Assembly: GCF_900113065.1 (NCBI RefSeq)
Contig: NZ_FOOA01000003.1
Coordinates: 124,001 to 188,000, forward strand
Direction: 5' to 3'
Source of the DNA: Aureimonas phyllosphaerae
GTDB taxonomy: Bacteria > Pseudomonadota > Alphaproteobacteria > Rhizobiales > Rhizobiaceae
Length of the DNA: 64,000 nt
The position numbers and the translations under genes are program-made. The notes below the pieces were generated by a model that saw only the letters and a program-made list of their open reading frames with translations, was not told the DNA's origin and did not search any database. This document shows, in pieces, positions 25,123 through 49,138 of this stretch (position 1 is its first letter; each line of letters opens with the position of its first letter).

Positions 25123-26175
25123 TCAGGCGGCGCGAAGCGTCGCGGCCGGCTGGAGGTTCGCCTCGGTGACGGTGCGGTCGTCCTCCAGCGAGCGGGCCGC
25201 CTGAAGGCCGCCCTTCTGGAGTTCGCCGTGATAGGCGCGCACGGCCTCGTCCGGCGTCAGCGCGCCGTCGGCGACCTGACGCATCATCGAGACCATCGCC
25301 AGCGGATCCTCGGCCAGGTTGATCTTGCGGCCGAAGAGGGCGACGCGGGCGCCGTACTTCTCGGCCTGCGCGACCAGTTCGAACGTGTCGCGCGCGGTGC
25401 CGGCACCGCCGCCGAGCACGCCGACGACCAGCGTCGAATCGAAGCTCGCAAGCTCCTCGAGCGCCTTCGGACCGTTGTAGACGATCTTCAGGAATTCCGG
25501 CCGGTCGGCCTTCGAGACGCCCGCCAGAGACCGCAGGATGCAGTCGTTCATGTATTCGCCGAGCGCGTCGCGATCGAGGTCGAGCGGCACGTTCGGGTTG
25601 AACACCTCGTAGAAGTACTTGAACTCGTTGGCCGCCGCCTCGCGGCGGAACTCGGCGAACGCCTCCAGCGACTCGATGTCGGCGGCGAGATCGTTGTTGA
25701 AGGTCACGGAATACAGACCGAGATCGGTGCCCTTCACCGGCGCGCCCGGCTGCGGGAAGGTCGACCCGTAGCGCACGCGCGACAGCTCGGCCGTGCGGAA
25801 CGGCAGCGACGGGGCCCGCGTGTAGCGCTGGTGGCGCATGCCGCCCCAGCAGTCGGTCGTCTCGTTCGCGCGGATCGCCGGCTTCACGGCGCTGCCGTCG
25901 AAGGCGCCCCGCTCGTGCAGTTCGTCGAGGTTGGAGACCGACACCAGCATGATGTCGACGACGTCCTGGCGGATGATCGCCTCGATGGCGTCGAGAAATT
26001 CCTGGCGCGTGCGGCGGCGTCCCTGCGTTCCGTCCGGATTGCGCAGGAAGCCGGTGCCGCCGACACCCGATCCCATGTCGCTGTCCTTGGCGTCGGCGAT
26101 GATGAAATCCGACCGGCTGTAGCGCCCGGCGCGAATGTTCTGAAGCTTCTGGTCCAACCGGAGCACGGCGGTCAT
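25123..26175 (-). CDS. Class-I-aldolase-like TIM-barrel protein, unassigned substrate
   Basis: A 350-residue soluble protein with a recurring beta/alpha pattern (DFIIADAKD, VDIMLVSVSN, LGLYSVTFNN, KYFYEVFNP). The C-terminal half reads like a LacD/DhnA class I aldolase: FLKIVYNGP (Lys230, possible Schiff base), then STLVVGVLGGGAGTARDTFE and RVALFGRKINLAEDP as the phosphate-binding strands. I cannot name the substrate. It is divergent from the ADP-dependent-kinase-like gene, which suggests a kinase-aldolase pair. Start at 26175 was preferred; an ATG at 26256 would add 27 residues of atypical sequence. Confidence 0.65.
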   Translation of the reverse strand: MTAVLRLDQKLQNIRAGRYSRSDFIIADAKDSDMGSGVGGTGFLRNPDGTQGRRRTRQEFLDAIEAIIRQDVVDIMLVSVSNLDELHERGAFDGSAVKPAIRANETTDCWGGMRHQRYTRAPSLPFRTAELSRVRYGSTFPQPGAPVKGTDLGLYSVTFNNDLAADIESLEAFAEFRREAAANEFKYFYEVFNPNVPLDLDRDALGEYMNDCILRSLAGVSKADRPEFLKIVYNGPKALEELASFDSTLVVGVLGGGAGTARDTFELVAQAEKYGARVALFGRKINLAEDPLAMVSMMRQVADGALTPDEAVRAYHGELQKGGLQAARSLEDDRTVTEANLQPAATLRAA

Positions 26176-26472
26176 CCTCGGATCGTTGACGGGGTGCGCG
26201 CTCGGTTCGCGGACCGGACGTGCGACGCCGCAAGGTATAACTCCAAATTGTTTCATCGGAAATCTTTTTCTTCCAAATCTGCAGCGCGCTTCAGCGAGCC
26301 GACATTTGCGCTCTCGACGCATCAGAGGAGCGTCCTCCGGCCATCGACGCCCCTCTCCGCCCTCGCAGCCGCAGCATGAGGATGCTGCACGACAATGACG
26401 TTTTATGGTTGACCCCAGCCTCGCTTCCGCATGTTCCTGACGCGGATTGACGTGATCCTGCGGAGAGTTTCC
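26176..26472. promoter_or_regulatory. Divergent regulatory region with TCCAAAT direct repeats
   Basis: A 297-bp region, noticeably more AT-rich than its surroundings, between the aldolase-like gene (minus) and kinase-like gene (plus). It contains the heptamer TCCAAAT at 26242-26248 and again at 26272-26278, spaced 30 bp start to start, about three helical turns. DeoR-family regulators often bind repeated elements, and a DeoR gene lies in the same cluster. The assignment is inference. Confidence 0.45.
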
Positions 26473-27726
26473 ATGCACGACAGCGAAGCCGACTGGCGTG
26501 CCGCCTACGAGAGTCTGGTCCGCCGCCTGCCCGGCATGGCGCGCAGCGCCCGGCTGACGCTCTGCGGCATGAGCGCGTGCGTCGATGCCAGGATCGATCT
26601 GTCGAACGCGGCCGCTCTCTGGACGGCGGACCATCCGGATGCTGCCGCCTTCGCGTCGATGCTGAAGGATCGCGTCGCGCGCGGCGTCGGCGGCGAGGTG
26701 CGCGTCGAGTGGCCTGCCGGCCCCGCGTGGCTCGCCGAACACGTACCGGCCCGCTACGCGCTCGGCGGTGTCGGCCCGCAGGCCGGATGGGTGCTGACGA
26801 CGCTCGGCGCTCCAGCGATCGTCAACCTGTCGGACCGCAGCGCCCACATGCTGGCGCGCCTGCCCGGGAACCTGCTGCTGGCCGAGGGCGAGCGCACGGT
26901 GCGGGCGCGGTCGGTCCAGCCGCGCGGGGCGCGGCGGCCGGACATCTACATCTTCGAGTACACGGCGGGACGCGCCGTCGGCGACTGCATGCCGAACCGC
27001 TCGTCGCGCATCATCGTGCGCTTCGGCGATCCCGGCCTCGAGAAGGACGCGGCCTTCGACGGGCTGACGCCGCACCTCGCGCCGGAGGCCGGGACCGGCC
27101 TCGTCGCGGGCTTCAACTGCGTGCCGCCGGCCGATCTCGACGACGAGCTCGCTCGGGTATTCTCGCTGACGCGGCGCTGGCGCGACGCGGGCCTCTCCAC
27201 CGTGCACCTCGAGATGAGCACCTTCGAGGATGCGGCCTTAAGAGATCGCGTGCTCGACGGCGCTCGGGGTGCCGTGACCTCGCTTGGCATGAGTCATTCG
27301 GAATTGCGCGATCTCGCGCCCGGCGTCGCCGACGCCGACATGGCCTCGACGATGCGGACGCTCGGCGAGCGCCTGGGGCTCGATCGCGTCTGCGTCCATG
27401 CCGACCACTGGGCGCTGACCGTCACGCGGCGCGATGCGGACGTCGAGCGCGAGGCGCTGATGGCCGGTTGCCTCGTCGCCAGCACGCGGTCGATGGCCGG
27501 GCAGCCCGCCGTGCCGGAGGGCGTGGCGGACGGTGCGACGTTCCATCGCCCGCCCGTCCGAGACGGGGCGCTCGGCGGCGGCTGGACCTCGGTCGCCGTC
27601 CCAAGCCCCTATCACCCTGCACCCCTCACCACGCTTGGGCTCGGCGACACGTTCACCGCCGGTTGCCTCCTCGTTCTCGGCTCGGCGGGCAGTGCCGGCC
27701 GCCAGCGAATCCGCCAACGCGCCTGA
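26473..27726 (+). CDS. ADP-dependent phosphofructokinase/glucokinase family protein
   Basis: A 417-residue protein that fits the ADP-PFK/GK fold (PF04587), a branch of the ribokinase superfamily best known from archaea. Recognisable elements are GGVGPQAGWVLTTLG at about 97-111, DIYIFEYTAG at about 157-166, the acidic VHLEMSTFED at about 242-251, and the catalytic GLGDTFTAG loop with Asp392. The start at 26473 has GGAGAG just upstream. Members normally phosphorylate glucose or fructose 6-phosphate with ADP. Real substrate and phosphate donor are unknown here. It is followed by an SDR 23 bp away. Confidence 0.72.
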   Translation: MHDSEADWRAAYESLVRRLPGMARSARLTLCGMSACVDARIDLSNAAALWTADHPDAAAFASMLKDRVARGVGGEVRVEWPAGPAWLAEHVPARYALGGVGPQAGWVLTTLGAPAIVNLSDRSAHMLARLPGNLLLAEGERTVRARSVQPRGARRPDIYIFEYTAGRAVGDCMPNRSSRIIVRFGDPGLEKDAAFDGLTPHLAPEAGTGLVAGFNCVPPADLDDELARVFSLTRRWRDAGLSTVHLEMSTFEDAALRDRVLDGARGAVTSLGMSHSELRDLAPGVADADMASTMRTLGERLGLDRVCVHADHWALTVTRRDADVEREALMAGCLVASTRSMAGQPAVPEGVADGATFHRPPVRDGALGGGWTSVAVPSPYHPAPLTTLGLGDTFTAGCLLVLGSAGSAGRQRIRQRA

Positions 27727-27749: not shown

Positions 27750-28523
27750 ATGTATCGCGAGAAATCCGACCTTTCCGGCCGCGCCGCCTTCATCACCGGC
27801 GGCGGGCGCGGCATCGGCCTGTGCACCGCCGAAGCCCTTCTGGAGCATGGCGCGCGCGTCGTGATCTCCGACCGCGACCCGGCCGTTCTGGAGGCCGGGC
27901 GCGCAGAACTCGCGGAGAAGGGTTGGGAGATCGATGCCGTCACGCTCGACGTTACGGACTCCAAAGCCGTCGCCCGCGCCGCCGCGGACGCCAACGAGCG
28001 CCACGGGGGCATCGACATCCTGATCGCCAACGCCGGCATCGCCTGGCCGGACACGCCGGGCGAAAGCATGACCGACGAGGTCTGGCACAAGGTCGTCGAT
28101 GTGGACCTCAACGGCTGCTACTGGTCGTGCCGCGAGTTCGGACGCGCCATGCTGGAGCGCGGGCGGGGTTCGATCGTCACGGTCGGCTCGATGTCGGGCC
28201 TCATCTCCAACAAGCCGCAGCGGCAGGTGCACTACAACGCTGCGAAAGCCGGCGTGCACCACATGACGCGCTCGCTCGCGGGCGAGTGGGCTCCGCGCGG
28301 CGTGCGCGTCAATTCGGTCGCGCCGACCTATGTTGACACGGCCATGTCGCGCGGCGGCTTCACCGACGACGCCTTGATGCCGACCTGGATGGCGTCGACC
28401 CCGATGAACCGCCCGGCGCGCGCCGACGAGATCGCCTCCGCGATCCTGTTCCTCGCCACGGACGCGTCGAGCGCGATGACGGGATCGATCGTAACGGTGG
28501 ATTGCGGCTACACCATTTGGTAA
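27750..28523 (+). CDS. SDR family oxidoreductase (sugar/polyol dehydrogenase-like)
   Basis: A 257-residue classical SDR. Motifs: ITGGGRGIG at 15-23, the NAG motif in IANAGIAW at about 93-100, catalytic Ser in VGSMSG, YNAAK (Tyr/Lys of the active site) and a C-terminal SSAMTGSIVTVDCGYTIW. Asp at the end of the second strand (VVISDRD) favours NAD(H). This form resembles polyol and sugar dehydrogenases. It lies immediately after the ADP-kinase-like gene and likely shares its transcript; a role in oxidising a polyol to the ketose used by the kinase is inference. Confidence 0.88.
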   Translation: MYREKSDLSGRAAFITGGGRGIGLCTAEALLEHGARVVISDRDPAVLEAGRAELAEKGWEIDAVTLDVTDSKAVARAAADANERHGGIDILIANAGIAWPDTPGESMTDEVWHKVVDVDLNGCYWSCREFGRAMLERGRGSIVTVGSMSGLISNKPQRQVHYNAAKAGVHHMTRSLAGEWAPRGVRVNSVAPTYVDTAMSRGGFTDDALMPTWMASTPMNRPARADEIASAILFLATDASSAMTGSIVTVDCGYTIW

Positions 28524-28587: not shown

Positions 28588-29397
28588 ATGGACGCCCCCA
28601 CCAAACGCGTCGAGATCATTCCCGCCAAGCGGCGCGCGATGATCCTTGACTACCTGAAGGTCAACGGGACGGCCTCGATCGGCGAGCTCACCGAGGCGAT
28701 CGGCGGCTCGCAGTCCACGATCCGCCGCGACCTCGAACAGCTGACCGAGGGCGGCTATCTCGAGCGCACGCACGGCGGTGCGCTGCTCGTGCCCCCCTTG
28801 CGCGCCACGTTCGAGCGCGAGCCGGCGCTCAACGCCCACTACCAGCACCGCCAAAAGGCGGCGATCGGCCAGGAGGCGGCGACACGCCTCAAAGGCGGTG
28901 AGAGCGTGATCTTCGATTCCAGCTCGACCGTGATCGAGGTGGTGCGGGCGACCGCCCTCCGTCGTCTGCCCCTTACCGTCGTCACCAACAATATCGAGAT
29001 CGCGCGGATCGGCTCCAGCGTGCCGGAATGGCGGGTGATCGTCACCGGCGGCACCTTGCGGCCTGGCGGAGACCTCCTGACCGGCCAGCCCGGCGAGCCG
29101 TTCTTCGAGACGATCCATGCCGACGTCTGCTTCACCGGCGCCTATGCCGTGACCGGACAGATCCTGACCGACGCCTCGATGGAGATCGCCTCGATCAAGC
29201 GGGCGATGATCCGCTCGGCGCGGCGCACGATTCTCCTCGTCGACAGCACCAAGTTCCAGGCGCCCGCCTTCTGCACCTTCGCCCAGCTGTCGCAGATCTC
29301 CGAAGTCATTACCGACCAGGGCGTCGACGCCGATATCGCGTCCAGCCTGCGCGCCAGCGGCACGGAGCTCACCGTCGTTCCCCTGTCAGGCGACTGA
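28588..29397 (+). CDS. DeoR/GlpR family transcriptional regulator
   Basis: A 269-residue regulator. The N-terminal winged helix-turn-helix (RAMILDYLKVNGTASIGELT, then GSQSTIRRDLEQL) has the classical DeoR signature. The C-terminal DeoR sensor domain (QEAATRLKGGESVIFDSSST, TNNIEIA, TGGTLRPGGDLLTG) binds sugar phosphates in this family. It probably represses the aldolase/kinase/SDR genes until a phosphorylated intermediate accumulates. Confidence 0.92.
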   Translation: MDAPTKRVEIIPAKRRAMILDYLKVNGTASIGELTEAIGGSQSTIRRDLEQLTEGGYLERTHGGALLVPPLRATFEREPALNAHYQHRQKAAIGQEAATRLKGGESVIFDSSSTVIEVVRATALRRLPLTVVTNNIEIARIGSSVPEWRVIVTGGTLRPGGDLLTGQPGEPFFETIHADVCFTGAYAVTGQILTDASMEIASIKRAMIRSARRTILLVDSTKFQAPAFCTFAQLSQISEVITDQGVDADIASSLRASGTELTVVPLSGD

Positions 29398-29400
29398 CCG

Positions 29401-30393
29401 TCAGGCCGACGCGCGCACCGTCAGCCGCGCCGGCAGAAGAATGCGCGTCGCCGCCTCGGGGCCGTCGCGAAGAGCATCGAGCAGCATCCGGGTCGCGAGC
29501 GCCGCGTGGGCCTCCACGTCCTGCGCCATCGTGGTCAGCGCCGGGCAGGCGTACCGGCTGAGCGGATGGTCGTCGTGTCCCGCGATCCGCAACGCGCCCG
29601 GCGCTTGGCCGATCGTCACGCCGCGCGCGAAGGCGGCCGCGAGCGCGCCCAGCGCCAGCCGGTCGTTGGCGCACAGGAGGCTGCGGAAGCGGGGCGGCCC
29701 CGTTTGGAGGATCGCCTCCATCGCCTCGAAGCCGAGACGCTCGAAGTCCCAGCCGTTGCCGGGTGGCGTGATCCGGTGCGGCGCAAGCCCGCGTTCAGCC
29801 ATGCGCGAGAGGTAGCGGGCCCGGCGCTCGCGAGCGCTAGCGTTCACGTCCGGCATGTCGAGATAGGCCGGTGCCTCGCCGCCCTCCGCCAGATAATCCA
29901 CCAGCGCGGCGACGCTCTGCCCGTTGTCGTTGCCGACGAAGCCGCCCGCCGCGCCCGACGCGCTGTCGAGAAAGACGAGAGGCATGCGCTCGCCGAGCGT
30001 CCGCGCCGGTTCCGCCAGAGCGTCCGCCCCGCAGGACGCGATCAGCGCGCCCGAGACCCGCTGGTCGAGCAGCGTTCGAAGCGCCAGCGCCTCGCCTTCC
30101 GCCTCGCCGCGCGACGACAGGACGAGCGGCCAGAAGCCCGCCGACCGGCAGTGCTCTTCCAGAAGCGCGACGAGCGCGGCGTAGAACGGGTCGGCGACGG
30201 TCGGCACCACGATGCCGATGGTGCGAGCCCGCCGCCGATTGAGATTGCGCGCGAAGGGGTTCGGCCGGTAGTCGGACTGTGCCAGCGCCGCCTCGATGCG
30301 TTTACGCGTCGCGGGACGCACGCTTGCGGGATCGTCGAAGAACTTCGCCAGCGTCGGGCGCGACAGCCCACAGGCCTTGGCAAAGTCCTCCAT
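29401..30393 (-). CDS. LacI family transcriptional regulator
   Basis: A 330-residue repressor. The N-terminal helix-turn-helix is AKACGLSRPTLAKFFDDP followed by the hinge RPNPFARNLNRRRA. The periplasmic-binding-protein-like domain begins TIGIVVPTVADPFYAALV. The usual first two helix residues of LacI proteins are slightly changed (TLAKFF instead of TVSRVL), but the fold is clear. The start ATG at 30393 gives a slightly short N-terminus. A palindromic operator lies 72 to 93 bp upstream (30465-30486), next to the divergent PfkB-GatZ operon. Confidence 0.9.
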   Translation of the reverse strand: MEDFAKACGLSRPTLAKFFDDPASVRPATRKRIEAALAQSDYRPNPFARNLNRRRARTIGIVVPTVADPFYAALVALLEEHCRSAGFWPLVLSSRGEAEGEALALRTLLDQRVSGALIASCGADALAEPARTLGERMPLVFLDSASGAAGGFVGNDNGQSVAALVDYLAEGGEAPAYLDMPDVNASARERRARYLSRMAERGLAPHRITPPGNGWDFERLGFEAMEAILQTGPPRFRSLLCANDRLALGALAAAFARGVTIGQAPGALRIAGHDDHPLSRYACPALTTMAQDVEAHAALATRMLLDALRDGPEAATRILLPARLTVRASA

Positions 30394-30464
30394 CGTGCGA
30401 TGACGGGGCGGAAGCGGGATGGCGGGTCTCCGTGTCGGAGCAATACCGGCGCATCGTGACCACG

Positions 30465-30486
30465 AAACTTTGCGCGCGTAAAGTTT
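30465..30486. promoter_or_regulatory. Near-perfect 22-bp palindrome, candidate LacI-family operator
   Basis: Half-sites AAACTTT and AAAGTTT flank a CGCGCG centre, with only one mismatched pair (positions 30472 and 30479). A central CG and this length are typical of LacI-family operators. It sits in the 181-bp divergent region between the LacI gene and the PfkB kinase gene, 89 bp before the kinase start, suited to control both. Confidence 0.7.
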
Positions 30487-30574
30487 TCGATTGACCGCCC
30501 TCCCCGCCGGGCGCAGCTTGGCGATGGGCGCGACGGGAGAACCGACACCGCGCCCGCCTTGGGGAGGGCGTGGC

Positions 30575-31522
30575 ATGAAGACGGTGGTGACCGCCGGGGA
30601 AATCGTCGTGGAGATCATGGCGACGCGGATCGGGCAGACATTCTTAGAGCCCGGCCCGCTGGTCGGCCCCTTCCCGTCCGGTGCGCCTGCGATCTTCATC
30701 GACCAAGTCGGCCGGCTCGGCCAGCCCTGCGGCATGATCTCCTCGGTCGGCGCCGACGACTTTGGCACGCTCAATCTCGAACGCCTGACGGCGAGCGGCG
30801 TCGACGTCTCGGCCGTCGCGGTGCATCCCGGCGCCGCCACCGGCAGCGCCTTCGTGCGCTACGCGGCGGACGGCAGCCGCGCCTTCGTGTTCAACATCAA
30901 GGACAGCGCCTGCGGCCTGATGGCGATGACCGGGGCGGCCGAGGCGCTGGTCGACCGTGCCGACCACATCCACGTCATGGGCTCCTCGCTGTTCTCGGAC
31001 GGCGCGATCACCGTGACCAAGGCGGCCGTCCAGCGCATCAAGGCGCGGGGCGGTACGGTCTCCTTCGACCCCAACATCCGGCCCGAACTTCTGGTTGGCG
31101 CCATGCGCGAGGCGCTCGAATGGGTCGCCGCGCGCTGCGACGTCTTCCTGCCGAGCGGCGCCGAACTCTTCCTCTTCACGGCGGCGCATGATGAGAACGG
31201 CGCGGTCGCGGAACTCTTGGCCGCCGGCCGGTCCGCCGTTGTCCTCAAGAAAGGCGGCGACGGCGCTGTCCTCTATGACGCACGAGGGCGCACCGCGGTG
31301 CCGGCCTTCCGCGTCGAGGAGGTCGATCCGACAGGCGCCGGCGATTGTTTCGGTGCCGGCTTCGTCTGCGCGTGGCTGCGTGGCGAGGGCCCAGAGGAGG
31401 CTCTTCGCCTTGCCAGTGCCTGCGGGGCCCTCGCCGTCACACGCAAGGGGCCGATGGAAGGCACGCGCTTCCGCTCCGAGATCGACGACTTCATCGCCTC
31501 GCAGACGGGAGTTGCGGCATGA
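30575..31522 (+). CDS. PfkB family sugar kinase, probable tagatose kinase
   Basis: A 315-residue ribokinase-family enzyme. The C-terminal catalytic motif is DPTGAGDCFGAGF with base Asp257; the first PfkB signature region is near GQPCGMISSVGADDFG. The ribosome-binding site is GGGGAGGG upstream of ATG 30575. The next gene is GatZ-like, overlapping by four bases. In Agrobacterium the same pair is tagatose kinase plus tagatose-6-phosphate 4-epimerase, so phosphorylation of D-tagatose at O6 is the likely reaction. Specificity is by context only. Confidence 0.82.
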   Translation: MKTVVTAGEIVVEIMATRIGQTFLEPGPLVGPFPSGAPAIFIDQVGRLGQPCGMISSVGADDFGTLNLERLTASGVDVSAVAVHPGAATGSAFVRYAADGSRAFVFNIKDSACGLMAMTGAAEALVDRADHIHVMGSSLFSDGAITVTKAAVQRIKARGGTVSFDPNIRPELLVGAMREALEWVAARCDVFLPSGAELFLFTAAHDENGAVAELLAAGRSAVVLKKGGDGAVLYDARGRTAVPAFRVEEVDPTGAGDCFGAGFVCAWLRGEGPEEALRLASACGALAVTRKGPMEGTRFRSEIDDFIASQTGVAA

Positions 31523-32799
31523 GCGCCATCGACCGGCTGCGCGCGCTGCCGCGACGGTTCCAGACGGGCGAGCACGCCGGCGTCACCTCGGTCTGTTCCG
31601 CCCATCCGCTGGTGATCGAAGCGGCGCTGCGACATGGTCTCGCCCGTGACCGCGACGTCCTGATCGAGGCGACCTGCAATCAGGTGAACCAGGACGGCGG
31701 CTACACCGGCATGACGCCGGCCGACTTCCGCCGCTTCGTGGAACGGATCGCCGCAATGGTCGGCTTTCCGCTGGAGCGGCTGGTGCTCGGCGGCGACCAT
31801 CTCGGCCCCAATCCCTGGAAGCATCTCGCTCCGCACGAAGCGATGTCCAAGGCCGAGACGATGATCGAAGGGTTTGCCGCCGCGGGCTTCGCCAAGCTCC
31901 ATCTCGACGCCTCGATGGGATGCGCCGGCGAGCCGGCTGCCCTCGACGACGAGACCGTCGCCCGACGCGCCGCGCGGCTGGCCGAACGGGCGGAGGGCGC
32001 CGTCGCCAGAGGCGGCCTCGTCCCGCCGGTCTACGTGATCGGCACCGAGGTTCCCGTTCCCGGCGGGGCGACCGAAGCTTTGGACCACCTCGTCGTCACT
32101 GGCCGGGAGGCCGTCCGCCATACGGTCGATGTGCACGCGAAGGCGTTTGCGGCGCTCGAGCTCGATGACGCGTTCGCCCGCGTCATCGCGGTGGTCGTGC
32201 AGCCGGGGGTCGAGTTCGGTCACGAGGACATCGTGGTCTATCGGCCGCACGCAGCCGCGGACCTCAAGGGCTTTCTCGTAGAGGAGCCGCGTCTCGTGTT
32301 CGAAGCACACTCGACCGACTACCAGCCGGACGACGCGCTGCGCCGACTGGTGGGTGACGGCTTCGCGATCCTGAAAGTCGGCCCCTGGCTCACCTTCGCG
32401 CTGCGCGAGACGCTCTACGGCCTTTCGCACATCGCCGACATCCTGGCGCCCGCGCCGGGCGAGCCATCGCTGCGCGATGCGATGGAGGCCCTGATGCTGG
32501 AGAAGCCCGACAACTGGCGGAAATACTGCCACGGCTCGGACGCGGAGGTGGCGGTCCAGCGCCATTTCTCGCTCAGCGACCGCATCCGCTACTATTGGCC
32601 TGACGCCGCCGCGCAAGAGGCCGTCGATCGCCTGATGGCGCGGCTCGAAGGTCGCGCGATCCCCCTTCCCCTCGTCGGCCAGCATCTCGGACGCTTGGCC
32701 GAGAGCGTTGCGGCGGGACGGGTCACGCCTGAACCTCGGGCCCTTCTCCTCGCCGGCATCGAGGCGGTGCTCGACCGCTACGACCGCGCCACGCACTGA
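31519..32799 (+). CDS. GatZ/KbaZ-type protein, probable D-tagatose-6-phosphate 4-epimerase
   Basis: A 426-residue protein of the tagatose-bisphosphate aldolase non-catalytic subunit family. Characteristic segments are VCSAHPLVIEAALRHG (about 24-39), EATCNQVNQDGGYTGMTPAD (about 51-70), LGGDHLGPNPW (about 88-98) and KLHLDASMGC. No GatY/KbaY class II aldolase is present nearby, so it cannot be acting as their partner. A lone GatZ homologue in Agrobacterium converts tagatose 6-phosphate to fructose 6-phosphate, and that is the best reading here. It overlaps the kinase gene by ATGA. Confidence 0.85.
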   Translation: MSAIDRLRALPRRFQTGEHAGVTSVCSAHPLVIEAALRHGLARDRDVLIEATCNQVNQDGGYTGMTPADFRRFVERIAAMVGFPLERLVLGGDHLGPNPWKHLAPHEAMSKAETMIEGFAAAGFAKLHLDASMGCAGEPAALDDETVARRAARLAERAEGAVARGGLVPPVYVIGTEVPVPGGATEALDHLVVTGREAVRHTVDVHAKAFAALELDDAFARVIAVVVQPGVEFGHEDIVVYRPHAAADLKGFLVEEPRLVFEAHSTDYQPDDALRRLVGDGFAILKVGPWLTFALRETLYGLSHIADILAPAPGEPSLRDAMEALMLEKPDNWRKYCHGSDAEVAVQRHFSLSDRIRYYWPDAAAQEAVDRLMARLEGRAIPLPLVGQHLGRLAESVAAGRVTPEPRALLLAGIEAVLDRYDRATH

Positions 32800-35338: not shown

Positions 35339-37024
35339 TTAGTCAGCGGCCAATTCGTCCCGGATCGCCGAAAGCCAGACGACGACGGCTTCGGCGCCGG
35401 GGTCCGACACGCCCACCGCCCGTTCGCCGAGATAGCTCGACCGGCCGCGCCGAGGGGCCATGGCCGCGGTCGCCGCCGCGCCGGCGCGGGCCGCCTCCAC
35501 CGCAGCCTCCAAGCCGCTGCTGGCGAGCGCTTCCGCTGCGGGCTGCAGCGCATCGATCATCGTCCGGTCGCCGGGCTTCGTGTCGCCGAGCGTCGCGACC
35601 GCATCGGTGCCCTCGCAAAAGGCCTTGGCCCAATCTCTCGACGTCGGCGCGGCGATGCCGTCGAGGGCGCGCGCGGCGCGCAGGAGACCCGCCGCATAGA
35701 GCGCACCGGACGTGCCGCCGACCGAGCGGCGGAGGCTGCCAGACAGGGCGCGCAGGATGGAAGCCGCGTCCGCACCCGTCCAGTCGAGCGCCTCGGCCTT
35801 CGCGACTTCGGCGCCGCGCGCCAGGTTGAGACCGAGGTCGCCGTCGCCGACCATCTGGTCGAGGGCCGTCAGTCGCCCTTCTTCGGCGATCAGCCGCTCC
35901 GCCGCACGCACGAGGATCGCGACCGTCCGCGCGCCGTCGCCCGGACGCAGATCCTGTCCCTCACGGCGGGTCGAAGCGACAACCACCGGTCCCTCCTCGC
36001 CCAGTGGCCCGGCTCCGCGTCCAGGCCATGCGGGCGCCATCGCCGGCGCATCGAGAAGCCGCAGCGTCTCGGGGTCGGCCCGCAGCAGCGAGACGGAACA
36101 GCCCGCCATCTCGAGCGCGGTCAGGAACGTCCCGGTCCATAGCCGTTCGATGACGAGACCGTGGGTCCTCGCAGCAGTGACGGCGTCGCGCGCGACGATC
36201 TGCATCTCCATTGCCGGTGTCGCGCCGAGATTGTTGACGAGGAGAGCGACCGGCGTACCGCCGCCGAGCGCGAGTTCGGCAACGATGCGCTCTACCAGGG
36301 TCGCGGTGAGCTCGCGCGAAGGGCGCAGTGGCTCGCGCCGCACGCCGGCTTCGCCATGGATGCCCAGCCCAAGCTCGACCTCGCGCTCGCGCTCGCCGAG
36401 TTCGAAGCCCGGCTTGCCGGCGGCCGGCACGGTGCAGGCGGTGAGTGCGACGCCCATGCTGCCGAGGCCCGCGATGACCGTCTCTGCCGCGGCCTTGACC
36501 TCTTCCAGCGACGCGCCTTCGGCGGCCCGTGCCCCCGCGACCTTGTGGACGAGCACGGTGCCGGCGATGCCACGACGCCCGGCGGTCTGCGTGCTCGCGG
36601 CAAGCGCCACGTCGTCGGCCACGACGACCATCTCCACCGGAATGCCCTCGCCGCGCGCGATCTCCGCCGCAAGGCCGAAGTTGAGGCGGTCGCCCGTGTA
36701 GTTCTTGACGATCAAAAGCACGCCCGCCGCCCCGCCCACCGCGCGGATCGTGGCCAGCACCGCGTCGGTCGAGGGCGAGGTGAAGACGTCGCCGCAGACG
36801 GCTGCGGTGAGAAGCCCCTCGCCGACATAGCCGGCATGAGCCGGCTCGTGTCCGGACCCGCCGCCCGAGACGAGCGCGACATGCCCACGGGCGCGAAAGG
36901 CGGCGAGGTCGGCGCGGACGAGCACGCGCTCGCCTTCGAGGAGAGCAAGACCGGGATGGGCGAGGCAGAGCCCCTCCAGCATCTCGTCGACCACTGCCAG
37001 CGGCTCGTTGATCAGCTTCTTCAT
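35339..37024 (-). CDS. Fused dihydroxyacetone kinase (DhaK-DhaL), ATP-dependent type
   Basis: A 561-residue fusion. Residues 1-330 are DhaK: VSGGGSGHEPAHAGYVG at about 52-68 and the substrate-binding His223 (GLGIHGEAG) that forms a hemiaminal with the ketone. Residues 365-561 are DhaL: three aspartates (Asp389, Asp394, Asp396) in LDQMVGDGD bind Mg-ATP. The fusion means it uses ATP directly rather than the PTS. It could phosphorylate dihydroxyacetone, or erythrulose like related kinases of tetritol pathways. It stands opposite the sugar island and may take up its triose or tetrose product. Confidence 0.9.
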   Translation of the reverse strand: MKKLINEPLAVVDEMLEGLCLAHPGLALLEGERVLVRADLAAFRARGHVALVSGGGSGHEPAHAGYVGEGLLTAAVCGDVFTSPSTDAVLATIRAVGGAAGVLLIVKNYTGDRLNFGLAAEIARGEGIPVEMVVVADDVALAASTQTAGRRGIAGTVLVHKVAGARAAEGASLEEVKAAAETVIAGLGSMGVALTACTVPAAGKPGFELGEREREVELGLGIHGEAGVRREPLRPSRELTATLVERIVAELALGGGTPVALLVNNLGATPAMEMQIVARDAVTAARTHGLVIERLWTGTFLTALEMAGCSVSLLRADPETLRLLDAPAMAPAWPGRGAGPLGEEGPVVVASTRREGQDLRPGDGARTVAILVRAAERLIAEEGRLTALDQMVGDGDLGLNLARGAEVAKAEALDWTGADAASILRALSGSLRRSVGGTSGALYAAGLLRAARALDGIAAPTSRDWAKAFCEGTDAVATLGDTKPGDRTMIDALQPAAEALASSGLEAAVEAARAGAAATAAMAPRRGRSSYLGERAVGVSDPGAEAVVVWLSAIRDELAAD

Positions 37025-48226: not shown

Positions 48227-49138
48227 TCAGGCGTAGAGGTCCATGACCTCGCCGAGGAGCTTCAGCGCGTCTTCCTTGGAGCGCTGGAACGAGTTGCGGC
48301 CGATGATCGACCCGTTGCCGCCGCCCTCGCGGATGGCCCGGACCTCGTCGAGAAGTTCGCTCGTGTTCTTGGCCGCGCCGCCGGAGAACACCACGATGCG
48401 CTTGCCGGCGAAGGACGCCTGCATGATGTGGCGCACGCGGTCCGCACCCGTCGAGCGCGCGATGTCGTTCTTCTCGTAGGTGCTCTTGGCGTCGGCGAGA
48501 TCGATATGATCCGTCGGCAGCTTGACCTTGATGATCGTGGCGCCGAGCAGCGCCGCCATGTGCGCGGCGTAGGCGATGATGTCGAGGCCGGTCTCGCCCT
48601 CCTTGGTCACCTTGCCGCCGCGCGGATAGGACCAGACGACCGTCATCAGGCCGCGGGACTTCGCCTGCAGCGTGATCTCGCGCAGCTCCTCCATCATGTC
48701 GTAGCTGTCGTCGGCGCCCGGATAGATCGTGAAGCCGACGCCGACGCAGCCGAGCCGCAGCGCGTCCTCGACTGTCCCGGTCAGCGCCTGGTCCTGCTTG
48801 TTGACGAGGGAGTTGCCGCTGTTGAGCTTGAGGATGAGCGGCACCTCGCCGGCGAACGTGTCGGCGCCCTGCTCGAGAAGGCCGAGCGGCGCGGCGTAGC
48901 CGGAGACGCCTGACTCGATTGCAAGATTGTAGAGGTAGTGCGGATCGTAGGCGATCGGGTTGGGGGCGAAGCTGCGTGCCGGACCGTGCTCGAAACCCTG
49001 GTCGACCGGCAGGATCACCAGCCGCCCGGTGCCCGCGAGGCGACCGTGCATCAGGAGGCGCGACAGGTTGGTCTTCAGACCCGGCGTCTCGCCTTCGTAC
49101 CACGACAGGATCTTGCGGACGGTATCGGTTCTCAGCAT
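48227..49138 (-). CDS. fbaB: Class I fructose-bisphosphate aldolase (DhnA/FbaB type)
   Basis: A 303-residue TIM barrel. Segments VILPVDQGFEHGPARSF (about 41-57), GVGFTIYPGADDSYDMM (about 133-149), and Schiff-base lysine region TIIKVKLPTD (Lys204 or Lys206) place it in the archaeal-type class I aldolases. VFSGGAAKN and GSIIGRNSFQR form the phosphate-binding site. It interconverts fructose 1,6-bisphosphate with dihydroxyacetone phosphate and glyceraldehyde 3-phosphate. It stands alone. Confidence 0.93.
   Translation of the reverse strand: MLRTDTVRKILSWYEGETPGLKTNLSRLLMHGRLAGTGRLVILPVDQGFEHGPARSFAPNPIAYDPHYLYNLAIESGVSGYAAPLGLLEQGADTFAGEVPLILKLNSGNSLVNKQDQALTGTVEDALRLGCVGVGFTIYPGADDSYDMMEELREITLQAKSRGLMTVVWSYPRGGKVTKEGETGLDIIAYAAHMAALLGATIIKVKLPTDHIDLADAKSTYEKNDIARSTGADRVRHIMQASFAGKRIVVFSGGAAKNTSELLDEVRAIREGGGNGSIIGRNSFQRSKEDALKLLGEVMDLYA

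Follow-up and report, generated by a model that had tools for sequence, protein, structure and literature searches.

In the window, the whole 64,000-nucleotide stretch of Aureimonas phyllosphaerae DNA that we analysed, a kinase of the ADP_PFK_GK family (ADPK) and a divergently encoded, class-I-aldolase-like protein (ALD) probably form, on a balance tipping slightly in favour, the kinase–aldolase core of a module that breaks down a ketose, polyol-derived or otherwise rare, via a ketose-1-phosphate. We envision that the adjacent SDR would oxidise a polyol to the ketose, and that ADPK would phosphorylate C1 of the unphosphorylated ketose, with ADP as the most likely donor. ALD would then form a Schiff base through its invariant Lys and cleave the ketose-1-phosphate to give dihydroxyacetone phosphate plus an aldehyde, with the DeoR regulator controlling the operon. 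In the related genomes examined, the kinase usually has one of three different aldolases as its neighbour, a pattern suggestive of a so far undescribed route for cleaving rare sugars. More tentatively, and with less than even confidence, we propose that an undescribed bacterial family of ADP-dependent ketose 1-kinases and three kinds of aldolase in turn, including an undescribed class I family, make up an exchangeable two-enzyme cassette for breaking down polyols and rare ketoses on ADP instead of ATP.

The locus and its two central proteins

ALD is encoded on the reverse strand (25123..26175, end approximate) and ADPK, of 417 aa, on the forward strand (26473..27726). The two genes diverge from an intergenic region (26176..26472) in which no convincing operator was seen; by eye, GGAGAG precedes the ATG start codon of ADPK at 26473. 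The SDR (27756..28523) and the DeoR-family regulator (28588..29397) follow on the forward strand, both correctly assigned in the preliminary description. Among solved structures, the SDR comes closest to a putative polyol dehydrogenase (3awd) and to galactitol dehydrogenase (2wdz), and the DeoR gene is kept with the ADPK–ALD pair. Next come a LacI-family regulator beside the tagatose genes (29401..30477, reverse strand, start approximate; scanned as the longer ORF 29401-30840), a tagatose-kinase-like PfkB kinase (30491..31522, forward strand, start approximate; 413.5 bits in NCBIfam, slightly below the cut-off of 420) and a GatZ/KbaZ family protein (31513..32799, forward strand; TIGR02810, 609 over 569 bits), which is probably a tagatose-6-phosphate 4-epimerase. 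A dihydroxyacetone-kinase family protein (35339..37024, reverse strand; NF011049, 614 over 492 bits) is a possible triokinase for the released aldehyde; such a kinase was rejected as a general third enzyme of the module, occurring at only 5 of 136 loci searched.

ADPK matches Pfam PF04587 (ADP_PFK_GK) at E 3e-13 over residues 68-342 (49.7 bits, cut-off 27), and the Pfam results contain no PfkB match at E up to 0.1. This agrees with the preliminary description, which had recognised ADP-PFK/GK elements in the protein (GLGD, HLE and GGVGPQAG are all present) and had named an ordinary PfkB/ribokinase placement as the outcome that would speak against it. A single-sequence search of the PDB gave weak matches, the best at 0.051; a 12-row profile reached ADP-glucokinase 1ua4 at 7.7e-17, and the same 12-row alignment matched the archaeal-type kinase L002 at E 1.8e-7. 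The corresponding comparison with our 65-row alignment is circular, because L002 is itself among its rows. The NCBIfam equivalog cut-offs for ADP-GK/PFK are missed by a wide margin (42.9 against 387 bits), and a scan of viral contigs with ADPK returned two pattern stretches, neither of them a relative.

The 65-row alignment and the tree comprise the window kinase, 61 of 77 loci found by the genome scan described below and three archaeal-type rows; in three of the 16 omitted loci (L074, L083, L100) stop codons interrupt the matched stretch, and the others were judged near-duplicates or fragments. Invariant among the 65 kinases are the Asp of GXGD (D392), the Glu of HXE (E247) and the column aligned with the Glu of DXXE. 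In another comparison, a Streptomycetaceae row has His in place of the ADP-phosphate Arg.

The ALD frame begins MTAVLRLDQ and encodes about 350 aa, the 694-aa ORF overextending it. Pfam gives the protein no direct match up to E 0.1, NCBIfam gives weak DhnA-type matches and a single-sequence PDB search weak, spurious-looking ones; its profile has LsrF as sole PDB match (0.006). Compared with DeoC/LacD aldolases, whose template rows were picked for weakly hitting the ALD query profile, that profile aligns at E 2.3e-13 (98%, score 97, 198 columns); ten column shuffles and a reversal, used as controls, score at most 18.8. The Lys of FLKIVYNGP, residue 230 of the 350-aa protein and 221 in the trimmed alignment, is invariant in 44 of 44 rows including the window. 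Its counterpart in the DeoC/LacD proteins is a conserved Lys, which we take to be their Schiff-base Lys, and the GRK of a GG...GRK motif aligns with their GRS; a DAKD motif near the N-terminus is also invariant. Both the earlier LacD/DhnA-like reading of this neighbour and the position given for its Lys230 held up, and we regard ALD as a remote relative of the DeoC/LacD-type class I aldolases. The preliminary description had named lack of a TIM-barrel match as the adverse outcome for ALD; the alignment with DeoC/LacD aldolases speaks otherwise, with a TIM barrel as the presumed fold. Its plasmid matches with a gene at the match (40/47 among the matches listed) are labelled 'hypothetical protein'.

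Pairing of the kinase with aldolases across genomes

A kinase-seeded scan yielded 77 named loci in several phyla. The preliminary description had considered the family mainly archaeal and eukaryotic; it is more widespread in bacteria than was supposed there, though rare across the taxonomic class of the host, where PF04587 occurs in 4 of 289 genomes. Neighbourhood conservation, which the same description had raised, is evident: an aldolase lies in the flanks examined at 70 of the 77 loci (ALD at 39, a LacD-type at 11, a class II at 20), and the kinase–aldolase spacing is within 600 bp in 58 of 77, a distance taken on stop-to-stop frames and hence a lower bound. Two of the 39 ALD-type loci have incomplete partners, a contig-end piece in L036 and an ALD in two pieces in L074. 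Against our main model, none of the three aldolase types was found in the flanks examined at the remaining seven loci. The base rate in the host's class is 18 PF01116 and 56 PF01791 matches in 58 genomes. Profile comparisons of ALD with the LacD-type partner (probability 0.0-0.1) and the class II partner (probability 0.5) gave no match, and because they came back empty these partners are not close relatives of ALD. By a quick method, the aldolase label requires at least four changes on the kinase tree.

A reciprocal census of 50 ALD regions found a PfkB kinase in 30, ADPK in 12, both in none and neither in eight; among the 30 PfkB calls, L194 and L195 are 24-25% matches on the other strand, and those in L186 and L187 lie 828-938 bp away. 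Partners are exchanged on both sides, the kinase occurring with three kinds of aldolase and ALD with two kinds of kinase. Because kinase and aldolase recur jointly while the aldolase class changes, the dedicated sugar route that the preliminary description had suggested from this one pair has become more likely. Nine of 61 relatives carry the kinase, and in eight of these nine an ALD of at least 60% identity is also present, in one case as a contig-end piece. Less favourable to the main model is genome G301: the 20 kb examined around its kinase relative (43%) contain no ALD, and the genome's only ALD match (51%) is about 15 kb away.

Members of the kinase clade lie in sugar operons, some of them plasmid-borne, of rhizobia, agrobacteria, Lachnospiraceae and Verrucomicrobiota. 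Of the 39 ALD-type kinase loci, 35 have DeoR at 50% identity or above and 28 the SDR at 55% or above; at that level the SDR is missing from the other 11, which counts against the main model. A CUT1 transporter, whose SBP resembles a sorbitol-binding protein, is conserved in relatives; this SBP and the SDR are the grounds for proposing a polyol as the starting substrate. It is absent from the window, and the closest SBP copy in the same genome (60%) lies more than 100 kb off, which again counts against the main model.

Donor, acceptor and alternative readings

There is a realistic, though lesser, chance that the module and the ADP-family fold are as proposed but that ADPK uses ATP or pyrophosphate. 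ADPK shares 17-21% identity with the archaeal-type rows L001-L003. At the NXXE/DXXE motif ADPK reads SHSE, in which the Glu is invariant and Ser comes first in 28 of 30 ALD-type rows, and 12 of the 16 class-II-type rows have YXE or FXE in place of HXE. Elsewhere ALD has a PfkB protein as its kinase neighbour instead, and PfkB kinases are normally ATP-dependent. A switch to pyrophosphate is known within the ribokinase family, according to the available part of the source (PMC5931981). Set against this, R179 of ADPK aligns with R206 of AncMsPFK, an Arg in contact with the ADP beta-phosphate, and neither this column nor that of the ribose His (His309) varies across the 65 rows.

A different order of events, which we consider unlikely, would make ADPK the second kinase: a TagK or FGGY kinase would give a ketose-6-phosphate, ADPK would convert it to the 1,6-bisphosphate, and the aldolase would release two triose phosphates. 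A first sugar kinase near some loci, including the window with its tagatose-kinase-like gene and GatZ, would fit such a second phosphorylation; among the 39 ALD-type loci, five are flagged for a TagK-like kinase and six and five for two kinds of FGGY kinase, and four of the 20 class-II-type loci are flagged for a TagK-like kinase. The LacD-type and class II families are, moreover, named after bisphosphates, which their relatives often cut, and Arg183, a novel residue of ADPK at a sugar-site position, could bind a phosphate, contrary to the main model. The acceptor site argues the other way. The available part of PMC7948494 gives fructose-6-phosphate, glucose or both as the specificities of the ADP-kinase family, and K179, N181 and R212 of AncMsPFK as F6P-phosphate ligands conserved in ADP-PFK and bifunctional enzymes. 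In ADPK these align with P156, I158 and G185, and the Lys/Asn/Arg set of the ADP-PFKs is not kept. Lys is absent from the K179 column in all 62 non-archaeal-type kinases, a count to be read with the three archaeal-type rows also lacking it and with no phosphofructokinase in the alignment as a positive control. His, as in the glucokinase TlGK, occupies the Asn column in 11 of 11 LacD-type and 14 of 16 class-II-type kinases, and D36, E90, G114 and G115 are retained in the window kinase. Furthermore, the Aureimonas locus L039 has the kinase and the aldolase, with TagK and GatZ absent from the DNA examined. Because the F6P-phosphate residues are missing, the aligned residues point to a non-phosphorylated sugar, rather than a phosphofructokinase substrate, as the acceptor of ADPK.

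Improbable, in our judgement, is a role of ALD as an isomerase or C4-epimerase that uses a retro-aldol step on a sugar phosphate in place of cleavage. The assignment of ALD is remote and lacks a Pfam match, and GatZ, in the same cluster and once named for an aldolase, epimerises at C4, as stated in the accessible text of PMC11907403. However, the kinase adjoins LacD-type or class II aldolases in other lineages, and ALD matches the DeoC/LacD proteins at both the Lys and GRK positions. Linkage by chance or shared regulation only, with ADPK and ALD serving different routes, is very improbable: the kinase does diverge faster than ALD (61% against 80% identity between the window and genome G289) and eight of the 50 ALD regions have neither kinase, but the pairing is not chance, because it recurs at 39 of the 77 named kinase loci, and the label changes and the absence of both kinases together from any ALD region tell against coincidence as well.

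Comparison with known systems

In the open-licence PMC literature, nothing among the matches listed concerned these bacterial kinases and aldolases, as judged by title or abstract start. Should the kinase clade use a free ketose as its acceptor, the ADP-kinase family would gain a new acceptor class and a bacterial role, and the proposed route, if true, would give a function to an ALD family now recorded as 'hypothetical protein'. The exchange of partners makes that function testable directly with two purified proteins.

Like the ADP-GK/ADP-PFK enzymes (PF04587; 1ua4, 6c8z, 5od2), ADPK has GXGD, HXE, the catalytic Arg and the sugar-ring Asp and Glu, and the profile match spans most of its length. 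It differs in its identity of about 20% to archaeal-type rows, in SXXE for DXXE, in the unique Arg183, in lacking the F6P-phosphate residues and in its place in bacterial operons with aldolases. ALD shares with the DhnA/LsrF and DeoC/LacD class I aldolases (PF01791) a Lys at the Schiff-base position and the GG and GR motifs, but is longer, carries the invariant DAKD near its N-terminus and has no direct match to Pfam.

The Agrobacterium D-altritol/galactitol route, which Wichelecki is said to have described in 2015, reportedly uses a tagatose kinase (PfkB) and a PF08013 epimerase (GatZ) and includes neither an ADP-type kinase nor ALD; relatives of both enzymes adjoin the module here at 30491-32799. 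A precedent for the proposed chemistry is given by the sulfo-EMP (YihV/YihT) and sulfo-EMP2 (SqiK/SqiA) pathways, in which, as far as the available part of the source describes them, sulfofructose receives a phosphate at C1 and is then split by a class I or a class II aldolase, depending on the variant, to yield DHAP (PMC9594981). Their kinases belong to PF00294 (YihV) and PF00365 (SqiK), whereas ADPK belongs to PF04587 and so falls outside both. The mannitol/sorbitol route of Haloarcula hispanica likewise resembles our proposal in its CUT1 uptake, polyol dehydrogenases and a ketohexokinase that yields fructose-1-phosphate, but continues, in the accessible portion of that account, with a second kinase and an FBP aldolase (PMC11519228).

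Identity of the kinase and its aldolase-like neighbour

The 417-residue kinase (26473–27726, plus strand) matches Pfam ADP_PFK_GK (PF04587) at 49.7 bits against a cut-off of 27, which bears out the ADP-PFK/GK family membership given in the preliminary description; it falls far under the NCBIfam equivalog cut-offs for ADP-glucokinase and ADP-phosphofructokinase. The kinase is 93–95% identical to its counterparts in the same-genus (Aureimonas) genomes compared. PF04587 is scarce in the class, occurring in 4 of 289 genomes; in three of them the protein is full-length and of archaeal type. Loci L001, L002 and L003, assigned to small alphaproteobacterial genomes, encode full-length ADP_PFK_GK proteins of the archaeal type (E 1e-70 to 1e-78).

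Its divergent neighbour, ALD (25123 to ~26175, minus strand), matched no Pfam family and gave weak NCBIfam matches to DhnA-type aldolases (best 2.8e-4). An ALD profile found matches in 5 of 289 genomes of the class and 42 of 297 of the order, six of these 42 by weak matches alone. Ten of the 12 weak order-level matches were retrieved, each with a protein matching the profile; all six of these proteins that were scanned belong to the DeoC/LacD family by Pfam, and their NCBIfam matches are to DhnA-type models, with the cut-off passed in one. Nine of the ten, once aligned, match the ALD profile with 98% probability and E 2.3e-13 over 198 columns, an optimistic value, since the rows were picked for matching that profile; ten column shuffles and a reversal, which do not remove this choice, score at most 18.8 against 97. 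The invariant ALD lysine (in FLKIVYNGP) falls on a conserved lysine of the DeoC/LacD rows, and GRK on GRS. The profile match and aligned lysines thus argue for ALD being a LacD/DhnA-like aldolase, as initially proposed. A DeoC/LacD family (PF01791) match lies at 48281–49018 on the minus strand, ~22 kb from the pair.

Downstream of the kinase, Pfam and NCBIfam scans identify an SDR (27756–28523, plus strand) and a DeoR regulator (28588–29397, plus strand), then a LacI regulator, a tagatose-kinase-like PfkB protein, GatZ, a Gfo/Idh oxidoreductase and an esterase. The tagatose-kinase-like and GatZ genes (30491–32799; a tagatose-6-phosphate 4-epimerase type route) directly adjoin the kinase–aldolase module; at an Aureimonas flava locus (L039) the ADP-type kinase and aldolase are present without them. 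The same region carries a dihydroxyacetone-kinase family gene (35339–37024), whose product could rescue glyceraldehyde freed by the aldolase.

Conservation of the pair and exchange of partners

A kinase-seeded scan of named genomes with a 12-row kinase alignment yielded 105 stretches, 78 relatives and 77 loci, spanning Alphaproteobacteria, Verrucomicrobiota, Actinomycetota, Bacillota, Chloroflexota and one Bacteroidales MAG; since many loci come from MAGs, some of these taxon assignments may be contamination. By profile, the aldolase is ALD in 39 loci, LacD-type in 11 and class II in 20, and seven have none, so that the pairing first described from the window recurs, with some aldolase type in 70 of the 77. 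At two of those seven (L076 and L103) the sequence stops at the kinase frame or within 35 bp of it. In 58 of the 77 loci no more than 600 bp separate the aldolase from the kinase frame (32 ALD, 11 LacD-type, 15 class II), and 63 have a CUT1-type permease, whatever its identity, within reach. The one LacD-type representative scanned scored 224 bits against the 184-bit cut-off of the NCBIfam tagatose-1,6-diphosphate aldolase subfamily, and the one class II representative 417 against the 405 of PRK08185. Two of the 39 ALD-type loci have a second kinase adjoining a LacD-type gene; L061 and L062 (first gene; ~9.8–11.3 kb) each carry two ADP-type kinases, one by ALD and one by a LacD-type aldolase. 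A kinase tree of 65 rows, built by a quick method and with a long-branch warning, requires at least four changes of aldolase label.

Across 58 genomes of the class, PF01116 gives 18 matches and PF01791 gives 56, so adjacency at the observed rate is not due to chance; this base rate leaves out ALD itself, Bacillota and Actinomycetota. A chance origin of the linkage is excluded, and kinase–aldolase coupling is well supported. Outside the 77 loci, an Aureimonas plasmid relative of the kinase (G301, 43%) has no ALD in the surrounding 20 kb, and a Streptomycetaceae plasmid relative has a gene with a class II aldolase/adducin annotation nearby. Three loci (L082, L095 and L098, from Streptomyces, Bacillus and Brachybacterium) have, near the kinase, a gene of one and the same cluster; the L082 member, the one scanned, is weakly mannose-6-phosphate-isomerase-like.

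Seeding with ALD gave 50 regions, namely 46 of 48 strong order-level matches (the two omitted being the window genome's own) and four class-level ones. The partner kinase is PfkB in 30, ADP-type in 12, both in none and neither in eight, which are not 50 independent events since many of the genomes are related; the PfkB sought was the kind adjoining the ALD paralogue, and four of the 30 calls are weak or distant. Both arrangements occur in the window's genome (G000), where an ALD paralogue (51%; C20:99382–100356, L016:7332–9396) is preceded by ribose-type transporter genes and followed after 4 bp by a PfkB kinase, which amounts to a second form of the cassette, with PfkB as its kinase. Among 61 relatives, the kinase is present in nine and an ALD of at least 60% identity in nine (one a contig-end piece), with eight in common. 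Two alphaproteobacterial genomes of 1.4 Mb (L194 and L195) likewise carry a member of the ALD family, near ribose-type transporter genes and weak (21–25%) sugar-kinase matches.

Kinase residues, chemistry and substrate

Ligands of the ancestral ADP-dependent kinase AncMsPFK, as given in PMC7948494, were transferred to the window kinase through a HMMER alignment. D36, E90, G114/G115, R206, the HXE and DXXE glutamates and H360 are kept as D38, E75, G98/G99, R179, E247, E277 and H309, and the GLGD aspartate is D392; G98, G99, R179, E247, E277, H309, G343, G389, G391 and D392 are invariant among 65 aligned kinases. K179, N181 and R212, which according to that paper ADP-PFKs and bifunctional enzymes conserve, are replaced by P156, I158 and G185. 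No lysine occupies the K179 column in the 62 kinases that are not archaeal-type; the three archaeal-type rows all have leucine and provide no phosphofructokinase as positive control, so that this contrast rests on the AncMsPFK mapping. The N181 column holds isoleucine in 26 of 30 ALD-type rows, and histidine, the state of the glucokinase TlGK (PMC7948494), in 11/11 LacD-type, 14/16 class-II-type and 5/5 other rows. R183 occupies the position of S210, listed there among residues within 5 Å of F6P (PMC7948494); every one of the 41 ALD- and LacD-type rows has arginine here, as do 2 of the 16 of class II type. Because of this pattern at the ligand columns, a free sugar is the favoured candidate acceptor, though Arg183 would leave room for another anion at the sugar site. 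ADP is a plausible candidate phosphate donor.

Among solved structures, the SDR is closest to a putative polyol dehydrogenase (4e-78) and to galactitol dehydrogenase (2.5e-56), and a Sinorhizobium americanum solute-binding protein adjoining the kinase matches 4rya, named a sorbitol-binding protein (9e-179), whose crystal reportedly contains mannitol. A transporter of this type is absent from the window's locus, the genome's closest copy being 60% identical and >100 kb away. Because of the SDR relatives and the binding-protein match, a polyol or ketose is the likely substrate. It may be a different one at LacD- and class-II-type loci, where regulators and other neighbours differ and the L069 binding protein is closest to trehalose/maltose binders. 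Ketose-1-phosphate chemistry is moderately supported. On one Agrobacterium fabrum plasmid, ALD accompanies a glycerol-3-phosphate-dehydrogenase-like gene, an FGGY kinase and a transporter; judging from this single annotated locus, phosphorylation and then oxidation next to the phosphate would likewise yield a ketose-1-phosphate.

Relation to known systems

The kinase family label is not new, since six of nine plasmid kinase matches are already named 'ADP-dependent glucokinase/phosphofructokinase' in RefSeq; what is new here is the genomic context, the kinase residue pattern and the partner exchange. Among the literature matches listed, none dealt with this bacterial kinase–aldolase module. The steps of the proposed route resemble those of Haloarcula hispanica, for which PMC11519228 describes uptake by a CUT1 transporter, oxidation of the polyol and a ketohexokinase, a likeness of route, kinase family aside. 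Sulfo-EMP and sulfo-EMP2 (PMC9594981) follow the same kinase–aldolase logic, coupling a ketose-1-kinase to a DHAP-releasing aldolase that is class I in one variant and class II in the other; their kinases, however, belong to PF00294 and PF00365, whereas that of the window belongs to PF04587.
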